From assembly GCA_017617145.1 (NCBI GenBank), contig JAFZWX010000033.1, forward strand, positions 1 to 7,160: a DNA stretch of 7,160 bases. Reading direction: 5' to 3'. Every line of letters begins with the position of its first letter. The stretch's first letter is position 1. The stretch is from Treponema sp. GTDB taxonomy: Bacteria > Spirochaetota > Spirochaetia > Treponematales > Treponemataceae. Below the pieces are notes generated by a model. The model did not search any database. It was not told the origin of the DNA and saw nothing but the letters and a program-made list of their open reading frames with translations. A program made the translations under genes and the position numbers. Below are positions 855 to 7,090 of this stretch, piece by piece.

Positions 855-1361
855 CTAGGGTCTAGGATATAAAAATACATGGTCATCACCGCGTCTTATT
901 CTTGCACCATGACCATGAAGTTCATAATCATATCCTTCATCATATATTTCACCTGAAATTTGAACATGCAATTCTTTAAGTTTCTCATCGTTATTATCTG
1001 GAAGTGAACCGTTTTGTTCATAATATTGCTCAACATAGGATTGTGCCTGAAGAAGCTGATTTTTTGTTTTCTTTGTATCCGCGGAATCAATTCTCATTCC
1101 TATTATTAATGAAATAAAAGCAGGCAGTAAATATAAAGTATATAGTTCAAAGGTATGATTTTTTATGGATTTTATAAGGTAATAAACAGAAACTATTGAT
1201 GAAACAATAAATATTGGTGGGTATAAAAGAATACCAAAAGGCATGTATCTTCCACCAAGAAACGCGATTATTACGAAAATAAAATTCAAGCAAAATAATA
1301 ATACTTTGGGAATACTATCTTCGTTCTTATCGTTTTGCAGAAAAATTACAGGTCTTTTCAT
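855..1361 (-). CDS. Integral membrane protein of unknown function, three predicted helices
   Basis: A 168-residue protein that I do not recognise. A short polar N-terminus is followed by three hydrophobic segments at about residues 19-37, 42-64 and 72-88, then a soluble C-terminal domain of about 80 residues. That domain starts with a helix rich in Gln, Tyr and Glu (roughly 100-115) followed by N-G-S-L-P-D, a pattern reminiscent of the helix-to-strand turn of pilin-like and DUF4190-neighbour domains, though no homology is claimed. It ends in a His/Gly/Arg-rich tail with Y-D-Y-E-L-H and V-F-L-Y-P-R-P. The start at ATG 1361 has a TGAGGA ribosome-binding site about 5 nt before it. It is the first gene of the cassette starting at attC-A. 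Its leader carries the conserved hairpin (1411-1426) and a 13-bp palindrome, ATTCTT-T-AAGAAT (1377-1389). No terminator follows; the higBA promoter lies directly downstream. Confidence 0.75.
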   Translation of the reverse strand: MKRPVIFLQNDKNEDSIPKVLLFCLNFIFVIIAFLGGRYMPFGILLYPPIFIVSSIVSVYYLIKSIKNHTFELYTLYLLPAFISLIIGMRIDSADTKKTKNQLLQAQSYVEQYYEQNGSLPDNNDEKLKELHVQISGEIYDEGYDYELHGHGARIRRGDDHVFLYPRP

Positions 1362-1410: not shown

Positions 1411-1426
1411 CGCCCCAATGCGGGCG
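1411..1426 (-). promoter_or_regulatory. Cassette 5' leader hairpin, copy 1
   Basis: On the minus strand CGCCC and GGGCG form a 5-bp stem around the loop GCATTG, 3 nt after the R' box of attC-A and upstream of the membrane-protein gene. Stem sequence differs from the other copies but pairing is kept. Possible roles are a 5' mRNA stabiliser, a translational control element, or an extension of the recombination site. The structure is seen directly; the role is unknown. Confidence 0.6.
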
Positions 1427-1429
1427 TCC

Positions 1430-1492
1430 ACATAACAACTGGTTGTACCGCAGGCAGCTTGACTGCCTGTCGGTTACGAACCTTTGTTATGT
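1430..1492 (-). other. attC recombination site A
   Basis: An imperfect palindrome of 63 bp. On the minus strand R'' is ACATAAC (1492-1486) and R' is GTTATGT (1436-1430), perfectly complementary. Inside, GGTT pairs with AACC, GTA with TAC, CCG with CGG, and AGGCAG with CTGCCT, closing on the loop TCAAG; a single C and a single A remain unpaired on one side, as expected of extrahelical bases in attC. The expected cleavage is between G and TT in R'. The toxin stop codon lies 4 bp before R'', a typical cassette arrangement. The core differs from sites B and C by one base, at 1474, which falls in the unpaired purine. The flank TGATTTT next to R'' is shared with site C. Confidence 0.88.
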
Positions 1493-1496
1493 GATT

Positions 1497-1838
1497 TTAA
1501 TTGTTTGATACAAGTTTTACGACTGCTGTAACAAGTTTTTGATAATTCTCTTCGGAAAGTTTTCCGACTTTTTTATCAAAACAGAATTTATTTACAGCAC
1601 CTATAAGATGTATTACTGAAACAGAATCTTTAGGAAGACCAGTTTCTTCTTTCTTAAAAAGAATATTGGGCTCATAATTTGCCCGATCAAGATTTGAAGT
1701 AAATGGAATAACAACTGCTGTATTCAAATCTTTAATACCAAGCAAATCATTTTGCATTATTACAGCGGGACGGAGTTTAGAGGGGAGGCTTCCAAGTGGT
1801 TCACCAAAATCAATAAGCCAGATTTCACCATGTGTCAT
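1497..1838 (-). CDS. mazF: PemK/MazF-family endoribonuclease toxin
   Basis: A 113-residue protein, the usual length for MazF-type sequence-specific mRNA interferases. The N-terminal strand G-E-I-W-L-I-D-F is followed by a basic loop and K-L-R-P-A-V-I-M-Q-N-D, in which the Arg of R-P-A (residue 23) matches a conserved active-site Arg; V-V-I-P-F-T-S-N (42-49) supplies the conserved Thr-Ser. The start at 1838 is set by GGGAGG about 8 nt upstream and lies inside the antitoxin gene (14-bp overlap), giving coupled translation. The stop codon is only 4 bp from attC-A, and no terminator separates it from the next cassette. Its likely partner is the 65-residue protein just upstream. Family assignment is firm; target sequence cannot be read from the protein. 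Confidence 0.92.
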   Translation of the reverse strand: MTHGEIWLIDFGEPLGSLPSKLRPAVIMQNDLLGIKDLNTAVVIPFTSNLDRANYEPNILFKKEETGLPKDSVSVIHLIGAVNKFCFDKKVGKLSEENYQKLVTAVVKLVSNN

Positions 1839-2022
1839 TCTTTAATTCCTCCCACATGGCCTTCATGGAAGTTCTTGTCATGTCTTTTTCGAATTCAGTA
1901 TAATCTTCGGCAATTCGTTTTGACTTTAATGATTCGAGCATTTTTCCCATCAATATAATGGTTTGTTCGTAAGAAAGAGAAAGTACTTGTTCTGAAAAAT
2001 CTGCAAAAGCTGAATCTGACAT
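1825..2022 (-). CDS. Putative antitoxin of the PemK/MazF-type toxin
   Basis: A 65-residue acidic protein placed directly before the toxin gene and overlapping it by 14 bp, the usual antitoxin position. Residues 10-32 (E-Q-V-L-S-L-S-Y-E-Q-T-I-I-L-M-G) resemble the helix seen in RelB-like and small addiction-module antitoxins, where a leucine-rich segment with S-x-E-x is followed by a flexible toxin-binding tail. The tail here is charged and ends E-L-K-N-D-T-W, with Trp at the terminus. No clear AbrB, ribbon-helix-helix or HTH DNA-binding fold is evident, so whether it represses its own promoter is uncertain. The ATG at 2022 has a strong GGAGGT site (2036-2031). The role is inferred mainly from position, size and the toxin next door. 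Confidence 0.75.
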   Translation of the reverse strand: MSDSAFADFSEQVLSLSYEQTIILMGKMLESLKSKRIAEDYTEFEKDMTRTSMKAMWEELKNDTW

Positions 2023-2043
2023 TACTATTTACCTCCATATATT

Positions 2044-2072
2044 ATTATACTACATTTTTTATATTTTTTGTT
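2044..2072 (-). promoter_or_regulatory. Probable promoter of the antitoxin/toxin pair
   Basis: On the minus strand a perfect -10 hexamer TATAAT lies at 2049-2044, about 7 bp before the GGAGGT ribosome-binding site of the antitoxin. The region 17 bp further upstream (2072-2067, AACAAA) is a poor -35 match within a very AT-rich stretch. The predicted leader is short, with the ribosome-binding site at the transcript's 5' end. The 95-bp gap to the lipoprotein gene (2023-2117) also contains a short AT-only hairpin before CCGTTTTTTT at about 2091-2115, which could be a weak terminator for that gene. Confidence 0.5.
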
Positions 2073-2117
2073 TTAAAATTTTAAATACAAAAAAACGGAA
2101 AATATTCACATTATATT

Positions 2118-3929
2118 CTATAAACCAAGTTTAGTTTGAATCTTAAAGAATTCTTCCGGGCTTACTTCCATTGTTCTTTCAAATAATCTTTTTAATGTTT
2201 CAGCATTTTCTTTGTTGTCTGATTTGTAACGCTTGTAGGATGTTGCCAGAATTGCACTGAAACAGGTGTCCTGATATTTTGTTCCCGGATATACTTCTTT
2301 AATTGTAAGACGGATTTTAGTAGTAGGTTTTTCAAGAATTACTGTATTGAAATATACATAATCTTCAAATGAAACTGTTCTTGTAGTGTTGTTTTCCAAA
2401 TCTTCCAATTTAAAAGTTTTAACACGTGCATTTTCTTTGTAGAGTTTCATGTTGTTGATATCTGAATAGCCGTTAATCAGTTCAAGTTCAATCACAGGTT
2501 CTGTAAATTCTACTGTAATGTATTCACCGATACCATTTCCATCAACTCCTTCTACCCATGGAATGTGATTATAATTCCACCAGTATGGATGACATTTGCA
2601 GCCTTGTTCAAAGGCTTTTCCAAGATTGTCAGGAGTATATTTGATGAGCTTACCTTTTATTGTTTCCTCAAATGAAGATGATGCTGTAATTGATTTTATA
2701 TTTCTGTTGTGAAAGCCATCGGTTTTATCTGGATCATCGTAAGTGTTTTCTCCATCATTTTTGAAATCTCGGAAAACCTGATCTATTCCACCTGTAATGA
2801 AAAGCATTGAATATTGATTGTATTTGCATTTGAGGTAACCGTCACTATCAACAGCAAGACATGATCTAGGGAGCACTGTATATAATCCTGTATACCCTGT
2901 TACAAACCATATATTATTATCATCATAGAAGAAATAAGATTCTGCATCTGGTTCAATATCAAAACAGTTTATTTCAGAAGGAAGATTACTTGTGTCTGCC
3001 TGAACAATTTGTACAGTACCAGCTTTTTCAAGTTTGTCTATTAAGGAAGCAAAACGTGACTTTGATTCTTGTGCTGTGTCAGATACACTTGTAGATTTTC
3101 CATTTATCCAGCCGTATTTTGAATCTGTAAGAGAGTCAATTCTTACATAATACCAGGTTTCATCTGTTTTATCTTTTGGAACATATTTGGCTCTTGTTTT
3201 AAGGCGTATTCCTTCAACAGCAGGAATAGAGAAGGGCTGATTTATAATTTTAAGTTTCTGATTAAAATACATTCTGTCTTTTGAATAATCAAGATCAGCG
3301 AGTGGATTTTTTGTTATAAAGATTTTATTGCTTGAGGAATCTGGTTTTTCAAAAAAATATGTCTCTTCTGAAACTGTTATATTTAATTGTGAACAGGTGA
3401 CGGCGTAATCATTTAAAGTAAACTTATCAAGAGCTTTTGACCGGTTTTCATCTATAAAGGAAATTCCATTTATTACGTATGCGCCTGATTTCTGTTCTTC
3501 TAAATCAAAGCGATCCTGATCCCATTTTAAGATGGCAGTTTCTTTATTTGGAAAAATAAGGCCCAGCCATTTTGAAATATAATCAGAATCAGCGGTTTCA
3601 TTTATGGTGTCTGGATATTCAAGATAAAACTCATCTTTTGTCATCTTGAGGTTTCCTGTCATCACGGTAGCTCTGTCTTTTTTGAATTCATAAATTGCTG
3701 ATGTTGCATCATCTGTTTTTGGACCATTAAAAGTAAGTTGAGATACAACTCCGTCTTCGGTAGTGTATTTTAATCTTCTTACTCTTGATGGAATATTTAC
3801 AAACTCTTGTGAGACTTGAGCTGTTGATTCAACTTTTGGTTCTTCAGTAATAACATTTGATGACACATTCCTTTTTGAACAACTGAAAAAACATAATACA
3901 GTAAAAAATAAGAATAACACTTTTTTCAT
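2118..3929 (-). CDS. Large lipoprotein with SH3-like and NADase-type glycan-binding-like domains
   Basis: A 603-residue protein, probably anchored in the envelope. It starts with a lipoprotein signal peptide: M-K-K, a hydrophobic core, then F-F-S-C with the acylated Cys at residue 17, a relaxed lipobox of the kind spirochetes use. Residues about 190-278 look like a bacterial SH3 domain (E-K-P-D-S-S-S-N near the start, W-Y-Y-V-R-I-D and Y-G-W-I-N-G-K at the end). Residues about 411-562 match the pattern of the NADase-type glycan-binding (discoidin-like) domain: W-V-E-G-V-D-G-N-G-I-G-E-Y-I, E-L-I-N-G-Y, then K-E-N-A-R-V-K. Cysteines 444, 446 and 556 lie in that domain. The frame is open back to a GTG at 3968 that overlaps R' of attC-B, but the ATG at 3929 is chosen because GAGGGAG (3942-3936) precedes it by 6 nt and the signal peptide starts there. 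Suggested role is binding a glycan or cell-wall component; no catalytic domain is recognised. Confidence 0.85.
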   Translation of the reverse strand: MKKVLFLFFTVLCFFSCSKRNVSSNVITEEPKVESTAQVSQEFVNIPSRVRRLKYTTEDGVVSQLTFNGPKTDDATSAIYEFKKDRATVMTGNLKMTKDEFYLEYPDTINETADSDYISKWLGLIFPNKETAILKWDQDRFDLEEQKSGAYVINGISFIDENRSKALDKFTLNDYAVTCSQLNITVSEETYFFEKPDSSSNKIFITKNPLADLDYSKDRMYFNQKLKIINQPFSIPAVEGIRLKTRAKYVPKDKTDETWYYVRIDSLTDSKYGWINGKSTSVSDTAQESKSRFASLIDKLEKAGTVQIVQADTSNLPSEINCFDIEPDAESYFFYDDNNIWFVTGYTGLYTVLPRSCLAVDSDGYLKCKYNQYSMLFITGGIDQVFRDFKNDGENTYDDPDKTDGFHNRNIKSITASSSFEETIKGKLIKYTPDNLGKAFEQGCKCHPYWWNYNHIPWVEGVDGNGIGEYITVEFTEPVIELELINGYSDINNMKLYKENARVKTFKLEDLENNTTRTVSFEDYVYFNTVILEKPTTKIRLTIKEVYPGTKYQDTCFSAILATSYKRYKSDNKENAETLKRLFERTMEVSPEEFFKIQTKLGL

Positions 3930-3947
3930 TTTTTTCTCCCTCGGAAG

Positions 3948-3963
3948 CACCCCAGTGCGGGTG
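3948..3963 (-). promoter_or_regulatory. Cassette 5' leader hairpin, copy 2
   Basis: On the minus strand CACCC and GGGTG pair around the loop GCACTG, 3 nt after R' of attC-B. Relative to copy 1, a G-C pair has become an A-T pair, a compensatory change. The ribosome-binding site of the lipoprotein gene follows directly. Role unknown. Confidence 0.6.
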
Positions 3964-3966
3964 TCC

Positions 3967-4029
3967 ACATAACAACTGGTTGTACCGCAGGCAGCTTGAC
4001 TGCCTGTCGGCTACGAACCTTTGTTATGA
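3967..4029 (-). other. attC recombination site B
   Basis: A 63-bp site with the same bulged stem and TCAAG loop as sites A and C. On the minus strand R'' is TCATAAC (4029-4023), while R' is GTTATGT (3973-3967), so the outermost base pair is mismatched in the array. That is expected: the TTATGT part of R' belongs to the next cassette. R'' instead matches the TTATGA at the start of its own cassette (attC-C R'). Confidence 0.87.
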
Positions 4030-4041
4030 CAATTATATTTC

Positions 4042-4150
4042 TTATACAGAATTGGATTTCATAAATACTCTTTTCTTTAAGAATATTCTGTATAACCATT
4101 TGAAGCGTATGCTTCTATTATTATATTTTTCCTAAGCGGCGTAAAGCCGC
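4042..4150. repeat. Cluster of palindromes in the 3' region of cassette C-to-B
   Basis: The 204 bp between the ankyrin gene and attC-B hold no ORF but several inverted repeats: an 11-bp perfect pair, TTATACAGAAT (4042-4052) with ATTCTGTATAA (4085-4095), separated by 32 bp; GAAGC-GTAT-GCTTC (4102-4115); and GCGGC-GTAAA-GCCGC (4136-4150), followed by a G+C-rich tail to about 4172 in which CGTAAA recurs. The last part is much richer in G+C than its surroundings and resembles a REP-like intergenic element. It could be a small mobile palindromic element, a structured RNA, or part of a decayed attC. A TATAAT on the minus strand at 4037-4032, just before attC-B, could serve the next cassette but lacks a good -35. 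Confidence 0.5.
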
Positions 4151-4190
4151 GTACTACCGCTTCCTCGCGTAAACCCTAAAGTTCAATTTC

Positions 4191-4223
4191 ATTTTTTAAT
4201 CGAGCTTGTTTCGATTAAAAAAT
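4191..4223 (-). terminator. Rho-independent terminator after the ankyrin-repeat gene
   Basis: A 13-bp perfect inverted repeat, ATTTTTTAATCGA (4191-4203) with TCGATTAAAAAAT (4211-4223), closing a 7-nt loop. It begins 10 bp after the ankyrin-gene stop codon. On the minus strand the 3' arm runs through AAAAAAT and the A/T tracts flank the stem on both sides, so termination could also act in the opposite direction. It would limit read-through into the lipoprotein cassette. Confidence 0.65.
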
Positions 4224-4233
4224 ATACCAAAAT

Positions 4234-5007
4234 CTATTTTTCCTGACAAAGCTTTTCTATTTTTTTAATCATATCTTCATCACCACTTAGTTTTGCAGCT
4301 TCTAAACAGGATTCATCAAGAGTTGCGCCATATTTTAGAAGCAGGTCAACCTGGCTTTCCCATTTCATACCTTTTTTTATCGCTTCGTAAAGAGGGGTTG
4401 TCGCTTCTTTTGAGTTAAAATATTTAAAGGCCTTTTTATCAGTAAAAAATAATAATTGCAAGCTCGTCCCGAACGGGAACGGATGTCCCTTCATATTTGG
4501 ATCTGCACCTGCCAAGAGAAGTTTTTCTATTACCCTGTTTATTTTGGCTACCCATTCTCGTTCTTCTTTTTCTTTTACAGCACCCTCATAAAGTATTCCA
4601 TCATCTTTATGGTTATTCTTAAACCATCTTTCTAAAAACTTAAGACTTTCATCATTGTAACGGTAAATTCTATCCCAAACATATGGAAGCCTGTTTACAT
4701 CTGCACCATATTGAATCAATAAATCAACTATCATCGTATCAGAATTTTGTCCGTCGATTATGTATGAATGCAATGTTTCTACAACAACTTTTAATGGAAT
4801 GGAATCTACCCAACCGGCTTCTCCCTTGCATTTTTCAGGATCATATCCAGCTTTAAGATGATTTTTTACCCATTCAAAGTCTTTTCCATAAACCGCATCA
4901 TAAAAATATCTGTATGATAAATATGACCTGAAATCTTCTGAAAACAAGTTGCATAAAAAGAGACAGACAGCAGTTATTGTGATTAGTAATTTTGATTTAA
5001 ATTTCAT
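4234..5007 (-). CDS. Exported ankyrin-repeat protein
   Basis: A 257-residue protein with a hydrophobic N-terminal segment (about residues 7-21, after K-F-K-S-K) that looks like a signal peptide, with possible cleavage near F-S-E-D (22-25). The rest carries degenerate ankyrin repeats, recognisable by their ends: V-K-N-H-L-K-A-G-Y-D-P (47-57), L-L-I-Q-Y-G-A-D-V-N (96-105), L-L-L-A-G-A-D-P-N (163-171) and L-L-L-K-Y-G-A-T-L-D (222-231), with T-P-L-Y-E-A-I-K-K-G (204-213) as a repeat start. Ankyrin repeats bind other proteins; no enzymatic motif is seen. The ATG at 5007 has GGAGGG about 5 nt upstream. It lies 47 bp after the other exported protein in the same cassette, and that gap holds a damaged cassette leader, so the two genes may have come from separate cassettes. 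A strong terminator follows. Confidence 0.82.
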   Translation of the reverse strand: MKFKSKLLITITAVCLFLCNLFSEDFRSYLSYRYFYDAVYGKDFEWVKNHLKAGYDPEKCKGEAGWVDSIPLKVVVETLHSYIIDGQNSDTMIVDLLIQYGADVNRLPYVWDRIYRYNDESLKFLERWFKNNHKDDGILYEGAVKEKEEREWVAKINRVIEKLLLAGADPNMKGHPFPFGTSLQLLFFTDKKAFKYFNSKEATTPLYEAIKKGMKWESQVDLLLKYGATLDESCLEAAKLSGDEDMIKKIEKLCQEK

Positions 5008-5026
5008 TTATCCCTCCGAAAAAGAG

Positions 5027-5042
5027 CAGGCCAGTAAGACTG
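5027..5042 (-). promoter_or_regulatory. Damaged cassette leader hairpin, copy 5 (fossil cassette junction)
   Basis: On the minus strand CAGTC and GCCTG surround the loop TTACTG, with one mismatch in the 5-bp stem. ACTGGCCTGCT is identical to the leader at 6200-6210 downstream of attC-C. Three bases away, where an R' box would be expected (5052-5046), stands ATGATGC, which no longer fits GTTRRRY. No attC stem remains; the upstream gene's stop codon is only 3 bp further on. Read as what is left of a cassette boundary after deletion of the attC. Confidence 0.5.
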
Positions 5043-5054
5043 GACGCATCATTC

Positions 5055-6161
5055 TTATTTATCTATTTCTTCATAAAATATTGCTTTATATAAAGCCTTG
5101 TAACATTGTGTAATTTCAAATGTCAACAAATAGACAGGTTTTGCAAAATCTTTTTTGAAAAGTTCTTCGGGTACAATTATCAGATAATAATATTCACGAT
5201 AATCTTTACGAATACTTTCTGGTATCAGCCAGGAATCATTCAGTTCTTTAGTTATGATGATTTTGTTACCGTTATAGTCACCTAGCAAAACCTTTCTGCC
5301 TTTGACTTCATCATTAATTTCATCCATTTTTAATACGATATTTGTAATTTCCACATCAGTATAATTTGGGTAGGGTTGTTCTTCTACTGCATAGGCTTTG
5401 CCATTTAATGTCAGGTTATACGAATCATCCTTTCTGGTTAAAACAGCAGTTCCAATTTCTTCGCACTTTTTTTCATAACTATAGATTTTATGACTGCCCG
5501 TTTTTATGTCTATTCCATTTTGTGGAACCGGCGGCCTATTTTTTATTTTGATTTCAATTTCATCGCCTTCATTCCCTAAAGACCTGAGTTTCGGATATTT
5601 TTTATTTTCATCAAAAAGATTTTCGTAATAAATCCATTTTTCCTGATAATATCTGATTTCCTCATCACTATTATGATCTTTTGAACCGGCAGTATAATAA
5701 ATCTTACAGTTTTTATAACGCTTATCAGGGGTGTATGTGTACTTTTTAACATCAGGTTCATCCAAAGGAATATTTTGTAAATAATATGCTTTTTTATCGT
5801 CCGATAAATTTTTATCCACACATTCAGCATTTATTGTAATTTCCTGATACTTAATTTCTACGTTAATTCCAGCCGGAATCCATTTTTCTTCAAGAAACGC
5901 TTCGCCGTTTTCGTCAGTTTCATATTCACCAAGCAGACAATATCTATGCAGTCTGTTGATCATAAATAATCTGGTTACTGGCGATTCTGGCTCGTGAATT
6001 TCAGCAGTGTTATAAACTTTAAGCCCTTTTACAGGCAGTCCGGTTTTTTCGCTTACTACACGAACCTTTACAGGCCTGATATAAATATCATTTGCATAAA
6101 ATGCACTGGCAAAACTAAAAAATAGAAATGTACATAAAGCTATTTTAAGTTTTTTCTTCAT
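5055..6161 (-). CDS. Secreted protein of unknown function with a CNA-B/carboxypeptidase-regulatory-like N-terminal domain
   Basis: A 368-residue protein with a clear signal peptide: M-K-K-K-L-K, a hydrophobic core, then A-S-A (18-20) or F-Y-A (21-23) before N-D, so it is exported. Residues about 30-115 have the look of a transthyretin-like or CNA-B-like beta-sandwich: V-K-V-R-V-V-S-E-K-T-G-L-P-V-K-G-L-K-V, then E-T-D-E-N-G-E-A-F, the usual turn of such domains. The middle and C-terminal parts are rich in Tyr, Lys and Asp/Glu, with K-I-Y-Y-T-A-G-S and a hydrophobic stretch Y-Y-Y-L-I-I-V-P-E; I do not recognise them. AAAGGAG about 9 nt before the ATG supports the start. It is the first gene after attC-C and lies about 5 bp after an A-rich leader. 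A surface or periplasmic adaptor role is possible but unproven. Confidence 0.75.
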   Translation of the reverse strand: MKKKLKIALCTFLFFSFASAFYANDIYIRPVKVRVVSEKTGLPVKGLKVYNTAEIHEPESPVTRLFMINRLHRYCLLGEYETDENGEAFLEEKWIPAGINVEIKYQEITINAECVDKNLSDDKKAYYLQNIPLDEPDVKKYTYTPDKRYKNCKIYYTAGSKDHNSDEEIRYYQEKWIYYENLFDENKKYPKLRSLGNEGDEIEIKIKNRPPVPQNGIDIKTGSHKIYSYEKKCEEIGTAVLTRKDDSYNLTLNGKAYAVEEQPYPNYTDVEITNIVLKMDEINDEVKGRKVLLGDYNGNKIIITKELNDSWLIPESIRKDYREYYYLIIVPEELFKKDFAKPVYLLTFEITQCYKALYKAIFYEEIDK

Positions 6162-6200
6162 TTTGCTTTCTCCTTTTTTAATTTTTCCTTCCTAAAAAAG

Positions 6201-6216
6201 CAGGCCAGTGCGCCTG
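6201..6216 (-). promoter_or_regulatory. Cassette 5' leader hairpin, copy 3
   Basis: On the minus strand CAGGC and GCCTG form a perfect 5-bp stem around GCACTG, 3 nt after R' of attC-C. Three of the five pairs differ from copy 2 while complementarity is kept. It is followed by CTTTTTT, so this copy could also act as a weak attenuator before the downstream gene. Confidence 0.6.
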
Positions 6217-6219
6217 TCG

Positions 6220-6282
6220 TCATAACAACTGGTTGTACCGCAGGCAGCTTGACTGCCTGTCGGCTACGAACCTTTGTTATGT
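6220..6282 (-). other. attC recombination site C
   Basis: A 63-bp site identical to site B in its core. On the minus strand R'' is ACATAAC (6282-6276) and R' is GTTATGA (6226-6220). R' carries the start of the C-to-B cassette. R'' does not match the start of its own cassette (TTAGGC from attC-D), suggesting that this cassette has been rearranged. The 93-bp stretch between the upstream gene and this site (6283-6377) is AT-rich, holds a TATAAT-like element near 6335-6345 without a -35, and has no clear terminator. Confidence 0.87.
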
Positions 6283-6377
6283 GATTTTTCATATTAGTAT
6301 TAATAACTAAAAAATCCAACACTTTACTTATTATAATATTTCTATTAAAAAAAGCGTTGCCACCTATAATAAAAACA

Positions 6378-6986
6378 CTATGGAATCACAAATAAAGTTA
6401 TAAAATCATTAATAGAAAAGTTATGAGGTTCACATATATATTCAATACAATAGGTATAATTTTTTCCGTTAAGATTATAATCTACCGTAACATAAATTTT
6501 TTTATTATTTTTTCCTTTTACTTTTCTTCCTGATATCTTAAAATCCAAATCAACTATTGTGTAATAAATTTCTTTGTCATTAATCTTATAAATATTTCCT
6601 TTTTCAGTATAAAGCCTGTTTTCATCCAAATTTGAAGAAATTTCAAATTGCTTATTAATAATTAAATCAAAAAGTTCTTTTTTAGAATCTTTTATTCTAA
6701 TTGATTTTATAAATAGATTATTTATAGTTTCAGGACAAATTATTTCTGCTTTTAAATAAAGATTTGTATCTAATGTACCAATAAAACCTCTTGTAGAAAT
6801 TGGATAGAAATAAATCGTTAAGGGAAAATTACTGTCAATTTCTCGTTTTATAGGACTCCATCCTTCTATATGCTGATATACAACCTCTTTATTCTGTGTA
6901 TCTAAATGATACAAATCTACTACATCTGCAAATATTACTGATGAAAAGAGTATTAATGAAAGTATTATTAATATATTTTTTTTCAT
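6378..6986 (-). CDS. Small secreted protein of unknown function
   Basis: A 202-residue protein with a typical signal peptide: M-K-K-N, a hydrophobic core of Ile/Leu, and cleavage predicted after V-I-F-A (17-20) before D-V-V-D. The mature part is about 180 residues of alternating hydrophobic and polar residues that suggest beta structure, with few cysteines (C-P-E and a late Y-C-I-E-Y-I-C pair). I recognise no family. The frame is open back to a GTG at 7001, but the ATG at 6986 is preferred because the signal peptide begins there and TTTAGG lies 4 nt before it; the ribosome-binding site is weak. It is the only gene in its cassette and the most AT-rich gene in the window. No promoter of its own is visible, so it probably depends on transcription entering through attC-D. 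Confidence 0.72.
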   Translation of the reverse strand: MKKNILIILSLILFSSVIFADVVDLYHLDTQNKEVVYQHIEGWSPIKREIDSNFPLTIYFYPISTRGFIGTLDTNLYLKAEIICPETINNLFIKSIRIKDSKKELFDLIINKQFEISSNLDENRLYTEKGNIYKINDKEIYYTIVDLDFKISGRKVKGKNNKKIYVTVDYNLNGKNYTYCIEYICEPHNFSINDFITLFVIP

Positions 6987-6998
6987 TTTACCTAAATG

Positions 6999-7013
6999 CA
7001 CCGCAGTGCGGTG
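6999..7013 (-). promoter_or_regulatory. Cassette 5' leader hairpin, copy 4
   Basis: On the minus strand CACCG and CGGTG pair around CACTG, 3 nt after R' of attC-D. It sits next to a different attC type (R' GTTAGGC), so the hairpin is conserved independently of the attC sequence. The small secreted protein's weak ribosome-binding site follows within 6 nt. Confidence 0.6.
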
Positions 7014-7016
7014 TCC

Positions 7017-7090
7017 GCCTAACTAGCGTTTTAAACGGTGGCGCAGCTTGACTGCGACATCCGCTTTGAAAACCATGAAAATCATTAAGG
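7017..7090 (-). other. Divergent attC recombination site D, R'' box degenerate
   Basis: On the minus strand R' is the canonical GTTAGGC (7023-7017). The stem keeps the plan of the other sites with different bases: GTTTT pairs with AAAAC, a bulged C, AAA with TTT, a bulged G, CGG with CCG, then an unpaired region, CGCAG with CTGCG and the same TCAAG loop (stem 7073-7028). Beyond the stem the expected R'' GCCTAAC is missing; the best candidate is CCTTAAT (7090-7084), with a 10-nt rather than 4-nt spacer. The site may accept insertions at R' poorly or be unable to excise the upstream cassette. Confidence 0.65.

Follow-up and report, generated by a model that had tools for sequence, protein, structure and literature searches.

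The closest described relative of the element considered here is the integron attC site (R''-L''-L'-R'), a DNA hairpin at the end of a cassette that is conserved in structure and poor in conserved sequence, is folded from the bottom strand, carries unpaired bases and adjoins the point of strand exchange. According to the accessible portions of the respective papers, IntI1 binds and recombines the attC bottom strand (PMC2117344), and the V. cholerae integrase reads flipped-out bases (PMC2727003). In contig JAFZWX010000033.1 of Treponema sp. (GCA_017617145.1), the whole 7,160-base stretch of which is hereafter called the window and belongs to a genome of 2.55 megabases with more such sites on other contigs, four cassettes begin with a much smaller hairpin that opens exactly 3 nucleotides (nt) after the R' box. 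This mini-hairpin is likewise a structured, sequence-poor palindrome at a cassette boundary with an unpaired base next to the strand-exchange point. Unlike attC, it lies outside R', carries no R or L boxes, has a stem of only 3-8 base pairs (bp) and belongs to the following cassette; the AAC...GTT pairing of R'' with R', the L boxes and the extrahelical base that define attC are found in the separate, adjacent palindrome. We lean, with some reserve, towards regarding the hairpin as a cassette-borne single-stranded-DNA element that stands beside attC and assists recombination through the bottom strand.

Two further structures invite comparison. GNA and GNNA loops on G-C pairs, e.g., d(GCGAAGC), are described in the available part of PMC4686876 as extraordinarily stable DNA mini-hairpins; those are designed or synthetic oligonucleotides, whereas the treponeme element is natural and covarying. 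Many bottom-strand copies of the element carry such a GNA/GNNA loop closed by C-G, and the bottom strand of its CGC-TTC-GCG copies reads CGCGAAGCG, a sequence used in that same paper. The attenuation of cmlA translation also involves a stem-loop ahead of a cassette gene, within the 5' untranslated region; in the accessible portion of PMC8876359, however, that hairpin is gene specific, overlaps the ribosome-binding site and is accompanied by a leader peptide, whereas the treponeme hairpin is common to most cassettes and keeps one set distance from R'. As far as their available text extends, the paper on Treponema integrons (PMC3607928) does not contain the word 'hairpin' and uses 'stem' for attC, and PMC6557892, PMC4909258 and PMC8352920 mention no element after R'. 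Literature searches, which covered titles and the openings of abstracts and reached little of the subscription literature, returned no paper on the hairpin.

The hairpins of the window and the attC sites that precede them, all read on the minus (coding) strand, are as follows.

1411..1426, minus strand: cassette-start hairpin 1, CGCCC-GCATTG-GGGCG (from the sequence; found again by the hairpin-blind attC survey)
1427..1436, minus strand: spacer GGA (1427-1429) of hairpin 1 and R' box GTTATGT (1430-1436) (from the sequence and the pattern of 77 hairpins)
1430..1492, minus strand: attC preceding hairpin 1 (R-box palindrome and DNA fold)
3948..3963, minus strand: cassette-start hairpin 2, CACCC-GCACTG-GGGTG, spacer GGA (from the sequence)
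3967..4029, minus strand: attC preceding hairpin 2, R' box GTTATGT at 3967-3973 (palindrome and fold)
6201..6216, minus strand: cassette-start hairpin 3, CAGGC-GCACTG-GCCTG, spacer CGA (from the sequence)
6220..6282, minus strand: attC preceding hairpin 3, R' box GTTATGA at 6220-6226 (palindrome and fold)
6999..7013, minus strand: cassette-start hairpin 4, CACCGC-ACT-GCGGTG, spacer GGA (from the sequence)
7017..7023, minus strand: R' box GTTAGGC of a fourth, different attC (from the sequence)

An earlier note on this DNA had placed four perfectly paired hairpins at these positions, each 3 nt after R', and the sequence bears this out. Three of them have a 5-bp stem under a 6-nt loop; for the fourth, to which the note gave a 5-nt loop, a 6-bp stem closing the triloop ACT is the better drawing. 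Hairpin 4 is missing from the set of palindromic attC sites because its R'' is degenerate. The note had overlooked a further possible pair, present in all four, between the second spacer base (G) and the C just past the hairpin (at 1410 for hairpin 1), so that the third spacer base, A, is bulged. Counted from one base past R', the complete element comprises a G-C or C-G pair, the bulged A, which on the bottom strand is a T, and 3-8 bp of stem closed by a tight loop.

To see how general this arrangement is, attC sites were sought in 127 loci (some overlapping, with repeats of the same context removed) by means of paired R boxes and DNA folding, without regard to the hairpin. Of 290 sites, 276 were oriented by the asymmetry of the L boxes, again with no use of the hairpin, and the remaining 14 were left out. 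At 225 of the 276 sites a perfect stem (at least 3 bp, with at least three G or C in stems of 3-4 bp) opens at exactly 3 nt past R', reaching at least 4 bp in 203 and at least 5 bp in 152, compared with 6 of 276 on the opposite side of attC and 9, 6, 5 and 7 of 276 at control offsets 23, 43, 63 and 83. In a cruder earlier count, 66 of 94 sites had the hairpin, where the random expectation per position is 0.6%. One-mismatch stems, present at 21 of the 51 remaining sites, were left uncounted because the opposite side of attC has them at 42 of 276. By genus label, hairpins were found at 130/160 sites in the window's genus (g1), 60/71 in g21, 10/15 in g22, 16/18 in g33, 2/3 in g27 and 1/1 in g24, and, in other families, at 3/3 in g10, 1/1 in g20, 1/1 in g36 and 1/3 in g53. 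It should be noted that most g1 stretches were first picked by BLAST with attC plus hairpin, which biases them toward hairpin carriers; stretches picked by the integrase alone agree with the survey inside the family. Evidence from other families is thin, as most of the 20 integrase-picked stretches yielded no credible attC; the rows from other families of the order, listed for having a hairpin, show stems of 3-6 bp and top-strand loops TTC, TCC, TAC, TGC, TCT and TATC. Two further rows, L218 and L140 at 1557, have other loops and look like chance.

In the 39 genomes searched there are 51 occurrences of the exact class CGCCCGCAYTGGGGCG, the 16 matching genomes all belonging to the window's genus, and 45 of the occurrences are preceded by GTTANNNNNA; of four inspected among the remaining six, three have an R' with a changed GTT and one has no recognisable R'. 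As a control, the best 80 of 583 named integrase loci, which come from many phyla and include one treponeme, were taken. A stem of at least 3 bp at offset 3 was found at 2 of 28 oriented attC-like sites (from 15 of the 79 non-treponeme loci) and at 4 of 60 in a looser count that includes the one treponeme. Among 16 Vibrio and Pseudoalteromonas sites picked by their L' letters, none has it. Outside the treponemes the hairpin is thus at background level in this control, which is limited because the attC finder recovers few sites in those phyla.

The 225 hairpins comprise 77 different sequences with 38 different stems, although a few stem types dominate, the commonest (CGCCC-GCACTG-GGGCG) accounting for 36 sites. 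Covariation was assessed on sites chosen by loop letters alone, blind to the arms, by shuffling the arm pairs 5000 times in each of five loop classes; related sequences are not independent, and the p-values here and below therefore serve as guides. In the class with a 5-nt CAYTG/A loop (14 unique arm pairs), the Watson-Crick fraction is 0.929 against 0.502 after shuffling, a value reached in 0 of 5000 shuffles, and here the covariation is decisive. The TNNC loop with 6-nt arms (7 pairs; 0.714 vs. 0.474; 12/5000) and the TNC triloop with 4-nt arms (6 pairs; 0.708 vs. 0.489; 74/5000) point the same way. The 6-nt loop class (11 pairs; 0.836 vs. 0.749; 215/5000) is weak alone because most of its stems are CGCCC, and the TNNC loop with 4-nt arms (13 pairs; 0.404 vs. 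0.426; 3619/5000) gives no signal because its pattern also matches out of register. Similarly, 17 cassette starts with a homologous leader carry stems such as TGGCGC, TGGGCC, TGGTGC, CGGGCC and CAGCCC with matching partners, some of them mismatched. In these same 17 starts, spread over 12 loci (e.g., L072, L066 and L267), a second covarying hairpin (CTTATC-GTT-GATAAG and variants) directly follows the first and is itself followed by AAATCNTCCAAC, which in several copies is complementary to the later ribosome-binding site GGAGGATT; the arrangement may be a translation-control leader.

The spacer obeys the same geometry. With one site taken per unique hairpin, its third base is A in 76 of 77, and among 89 distinct combinations of the second base with the base past the hairpin there are 68 GC, 10 CG and 1 TA, i.e., 79 paired against 61 expected from the margins. 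Most of the 51 sites that lack a perfect hairpin still keep an A at the third position past R', NGA being the commonest triplet; R'-NNA may represent a sequence contact of its own. Moreover, the R' triplet at a cassette start agrees with the one at the far end of that cassette in 147 of 183 cases and with the one in the attC where it sits in 45 of 183: the hairpin moves with its cassette rather than with the preceding attC. The earlier note's claims of a structure preserved under sequence change, of a constant position 3 nt past R' outside the attC core, and of independence from the preceding attC are supported. The near-constant GCAYTG loop finds no support as the essential part: this loop is typical of the window's genus, and relatives with TTC, TAC, TGC, TATC, TAAC, TTAC and other loops keep the geometry unchanged.

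The loops also distinguish between the two strands. Among the 56 unique hairpins with loops of 3-4 nt, G..A stands on the bottom strand in 26 and on the top strand in none. The GNA/GNNA class is defined by a G-N-A or G-NN-A loop that rests on two or more G-C pairs; on the bottom strand, 26 of all 77 unique hairpins agree with this definition and the CAYTG class of the window does not. Every one of the 77 sites with such bottom-strand loops has C-G as its closing pair. These loops go with short stems, being present in 18 of 20 stems of 3-4 bp and in 8 of 57 longer ones (p=1.4e-9). The same trade is seen within genus g21 alone (15 of 16 short vs. 3 of 18 longer stems) and between homologous families with TGCC stems (17/18) and CCTGCC stems (3/12; p=1.3e-4). 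The TGCC-stem family has 19 members, 18 with the stem intact, and is largely devoid of open reading frames (ORFs), as in 17 of 19 no forward ORF within the following 650 nt exceeds 81 amino acids. In these 19 cassettes (L260, L261, L263, L264, L274 and others), the TGCC..GGCA hairpin is followed by a conserved body, AACTGTAACTTTGAAAA.

It is reasonable to assume that such an element would act during recombination as part of the single bottom strand. In the circular cassette the order is R'-N-(G/C)-A-stem-loop-stem-(C/G)-gene, and on the single bottom strand the hairpin would close one base from the folded attC. There, it could shield the base of attC and R' from the ever-changing cassette sequence and, by resisting melting, might keep single-strand-binding protein off R'. 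The shielding step would agree with the structure and with a small predicted effect: when the hairpin is shuffled, predicted bottom-strand pairing of the R boxes falls slightly, from 0.779 to 0.758 (of 110 compared, 42 have the higher value with the native hairpin and 9 with the shuffled one). The other steps are our inference. The bulged T might be presented beside R' to the integrase, a contact that is our guess. In a stronger version, which we put forward tentatively as a possibility, the integrase or a partner would recognise the bottom-strand hairpin, its bulged T lying one base away from R', as a second structured recombination element, and the working site would be attC plus hairpin. 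A still bolder and frankly speculative form would have the hairpin also start second-strand synthesis or transcription on single-stranded cassettes. With regard to the integrases, those of treponeme integrons (L115, L120 and others) carry an N-terminal extension of approx. 90 amino acids with a PGR..W motif, reminiscent of the HARP domain, which binds DNA forks; the extension differs in other genera of the order, and a Pfam search of six integrases gave only integrase domains over the cut-off and nothing for the extension.

Several observations weigh against a bottom-strand role in recombination. The 51 sites without a perfect hairpin are one, some of them being the same hairpin-less cassette recurring across species. 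The effect predicted for attC folding is, as stated, small. The loop of the window's own genus (C-ACT-G, bottom C-AGT-G) lies outside the GNA class, as does the CAYTG class of the window. DNA energy tables rate the top strand as the more stable in 49 of 77 hairpins and the bottom strand in 21; taken as they are, they favour the top strand, but they cannot decide the matter because, as test oligonucleotides indicated, they give GNA loops no bonus, and folding energy was therefore dropped as a discriminator. Selection on the bottom strand should favour A-C mismatches on the top strand, and the 21 one-mismatch stems show no preference (8 G-T/T-G vs. 7 A-C/C-A), a test that brings no decision; such stems also have the background on the opposite side of attC given above. 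Finally, perfect hairpins stand at 62 of 72 sites in genomes with a full integrase match and at 22 of 32 in those without (p=0.058, omitting G006, in which the integrase is cut off); this lends the mechanism weak support, loss of the hairpin in genomes lacking a full integrase being only suggestive.

Of the other explanations, the best placed, albeit an unlikely one, is that the hairpin works in messenger RNA (mRNA), at the 5' end of the cassette transcript, where it would protect the message, separate the ribosome-binding site from the attC stem or bind a regulator through its loop. Of 194 closed cassettes, 186 have their longest ORF forward, 5 have it reverse and 3 have none, which puts the hairpin before a gene in nearly every transcript; the CAYTG loop is conserved in the window's genus; and attC stems hinder translation of the next cassette, as reported in the accessible part of PMC8876359. 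Gene orientation itself, considered as a means of separating expression from recombination, decides nothing with so few reverse or absent ORFs. Nonetheless, the loop bias is toward a DNA-stable type on the opposite strand, and by RNA folding 55 of the 77 unique hairpins are less stable in the mRNA strand than in the opposite one, whereas 19 are more stable there. G-U pairs are not in excess over A-C mismatches (8 vs. 7), and shuffling the hairpin leaves the predicted accessibility of the start codon unmoved (0.490 vs. 0.493, n=72). While the spacing from R' is fixed, the distance to the first start codon of the longest ORF ranges from 11.5 to 727.5 nt (10th to 90th percentile), and cassettes without ORFs retain the hairpin. 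A search of the window against Rfam 15 gave no family at the gathering score, only three matches below it with E values of 2-4.1. The earlier note had left the choice between an RNA element and a DNA structure aiding cassette capture; the latter is favoured because G..A loops occur on the bottom strand only, short stems go with them, ORF-less cassettes keep the hairpin and its distance to the gene varies.

Less probable still is that the hairpins have no present function and are palindromes inherited from old cassette starts. Template-switch correction of quasi-palindromes, in which one arm is copied onto the other, yields paired changes without selection and could have maintained them, and the dominance of a few stem types agrees with such descent. 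However, this explanation predicts neither the bottom-strand loop bias and its association with short stems, nor the covarying pair across the bulged A, nor 38 different stems at one exact offset.

We consider it rather improbable that the bottom-strand hairpin would be a start site for second-strand synthesis or transcription of an arriving or excised single-stranded cassette. In most cassettes the hairpin is found immediately upstream of the gene, for which the bottom strand serves as template, and small template-strand DNA hairpins fit the geometry of single-strand start sites, as in the promoters of the phage N4 virion RNA polymerase and Frpo of the F plasmid. The likeness to those short hairpins upstream of genes is one of geometry only; beside the hairpin, no conserved sequence was found except the spacer, and it is the distance to R' that is constant, whereas that to the gene varies. 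An intrinsic transcription terminator at the cassette boundary, i.e., a G+C-rich stem followed by a T run, is highly improbable, as a T run does follow some copies (e.g., hairpin 3 of the window) but at least six T in the next 9 nt are found at only 25 of 225 hairpins, and such a terminator would stop transcription before its own gene.

The genes that follow the four hairpins of the window are listed below.

855..1361, minus strand: first gene past hairpin 1, with 49 nt between hairpin and start codon (ORF)
2118..3929, minus strand: gene past hairpin 2, 18 nt from the hairpin (ORF; probable start at an ATG inside the ORF)
5055..6161, minus strand: first gene past hairpin 3, 39 nt from the hairpin (ORF)
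6378..6986, minus strand: gene past hairpin 4, 12 nt from the hairpin (ORF; probable start at an ATG inside the ORF)

Other features of the window deserve mention. The gene at 4234-5007 has no attC upstream of it; instead, positions 5015-5048 (minus strand) hold ACTGGCCTGC and then a T-rich stretch and GGAGGG, resembling the 3' half of a cassette-start hairpin of the CAGGC class, with an alternative 5-bp stem CCAGT-CTT-ACTGG also possible. This looks like a fused cassette that has lost its attC. At 4024-4100 (plus strand), as well as in L071, L073, L077 and L085, a near-identical CAATTATATTTCTTATACAGAATTGGATTTC precedes R'' at the 3' ends of unrelated cassettes in several species, and in the window it can pair with AAGAATATTCTGTATAA. 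Two gene pairs (143-797 and 1497-2022, minus strand) resemble toxin-antitoxin modules when their translations are judged by eye, one comprising a helix-turn-helix-type protein and a small partner, the other a MazF/PemK-like protein and a small partner.

Taken together, the hairpin seems to belong, so far unrecognised, to the machinery by which treponeme integrons move their cassettes; its structure is well supported, and its function is what we infer from that structure. If this is true, a hairpin 3 nt past R' would be a marker of treponeme-descended cassettes and would help to trace where a cassette came from. The finding would also bear on how integrases recognise cassettes, on programs that find attC sites and on synthetic integrons, and how attC folds correctly beside any gene would become a question that could be answered with stem-swap mutants. 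The recombination unit of treponeme integrons would then be longer than the textbook attC, with a DNA folding aid built into it.

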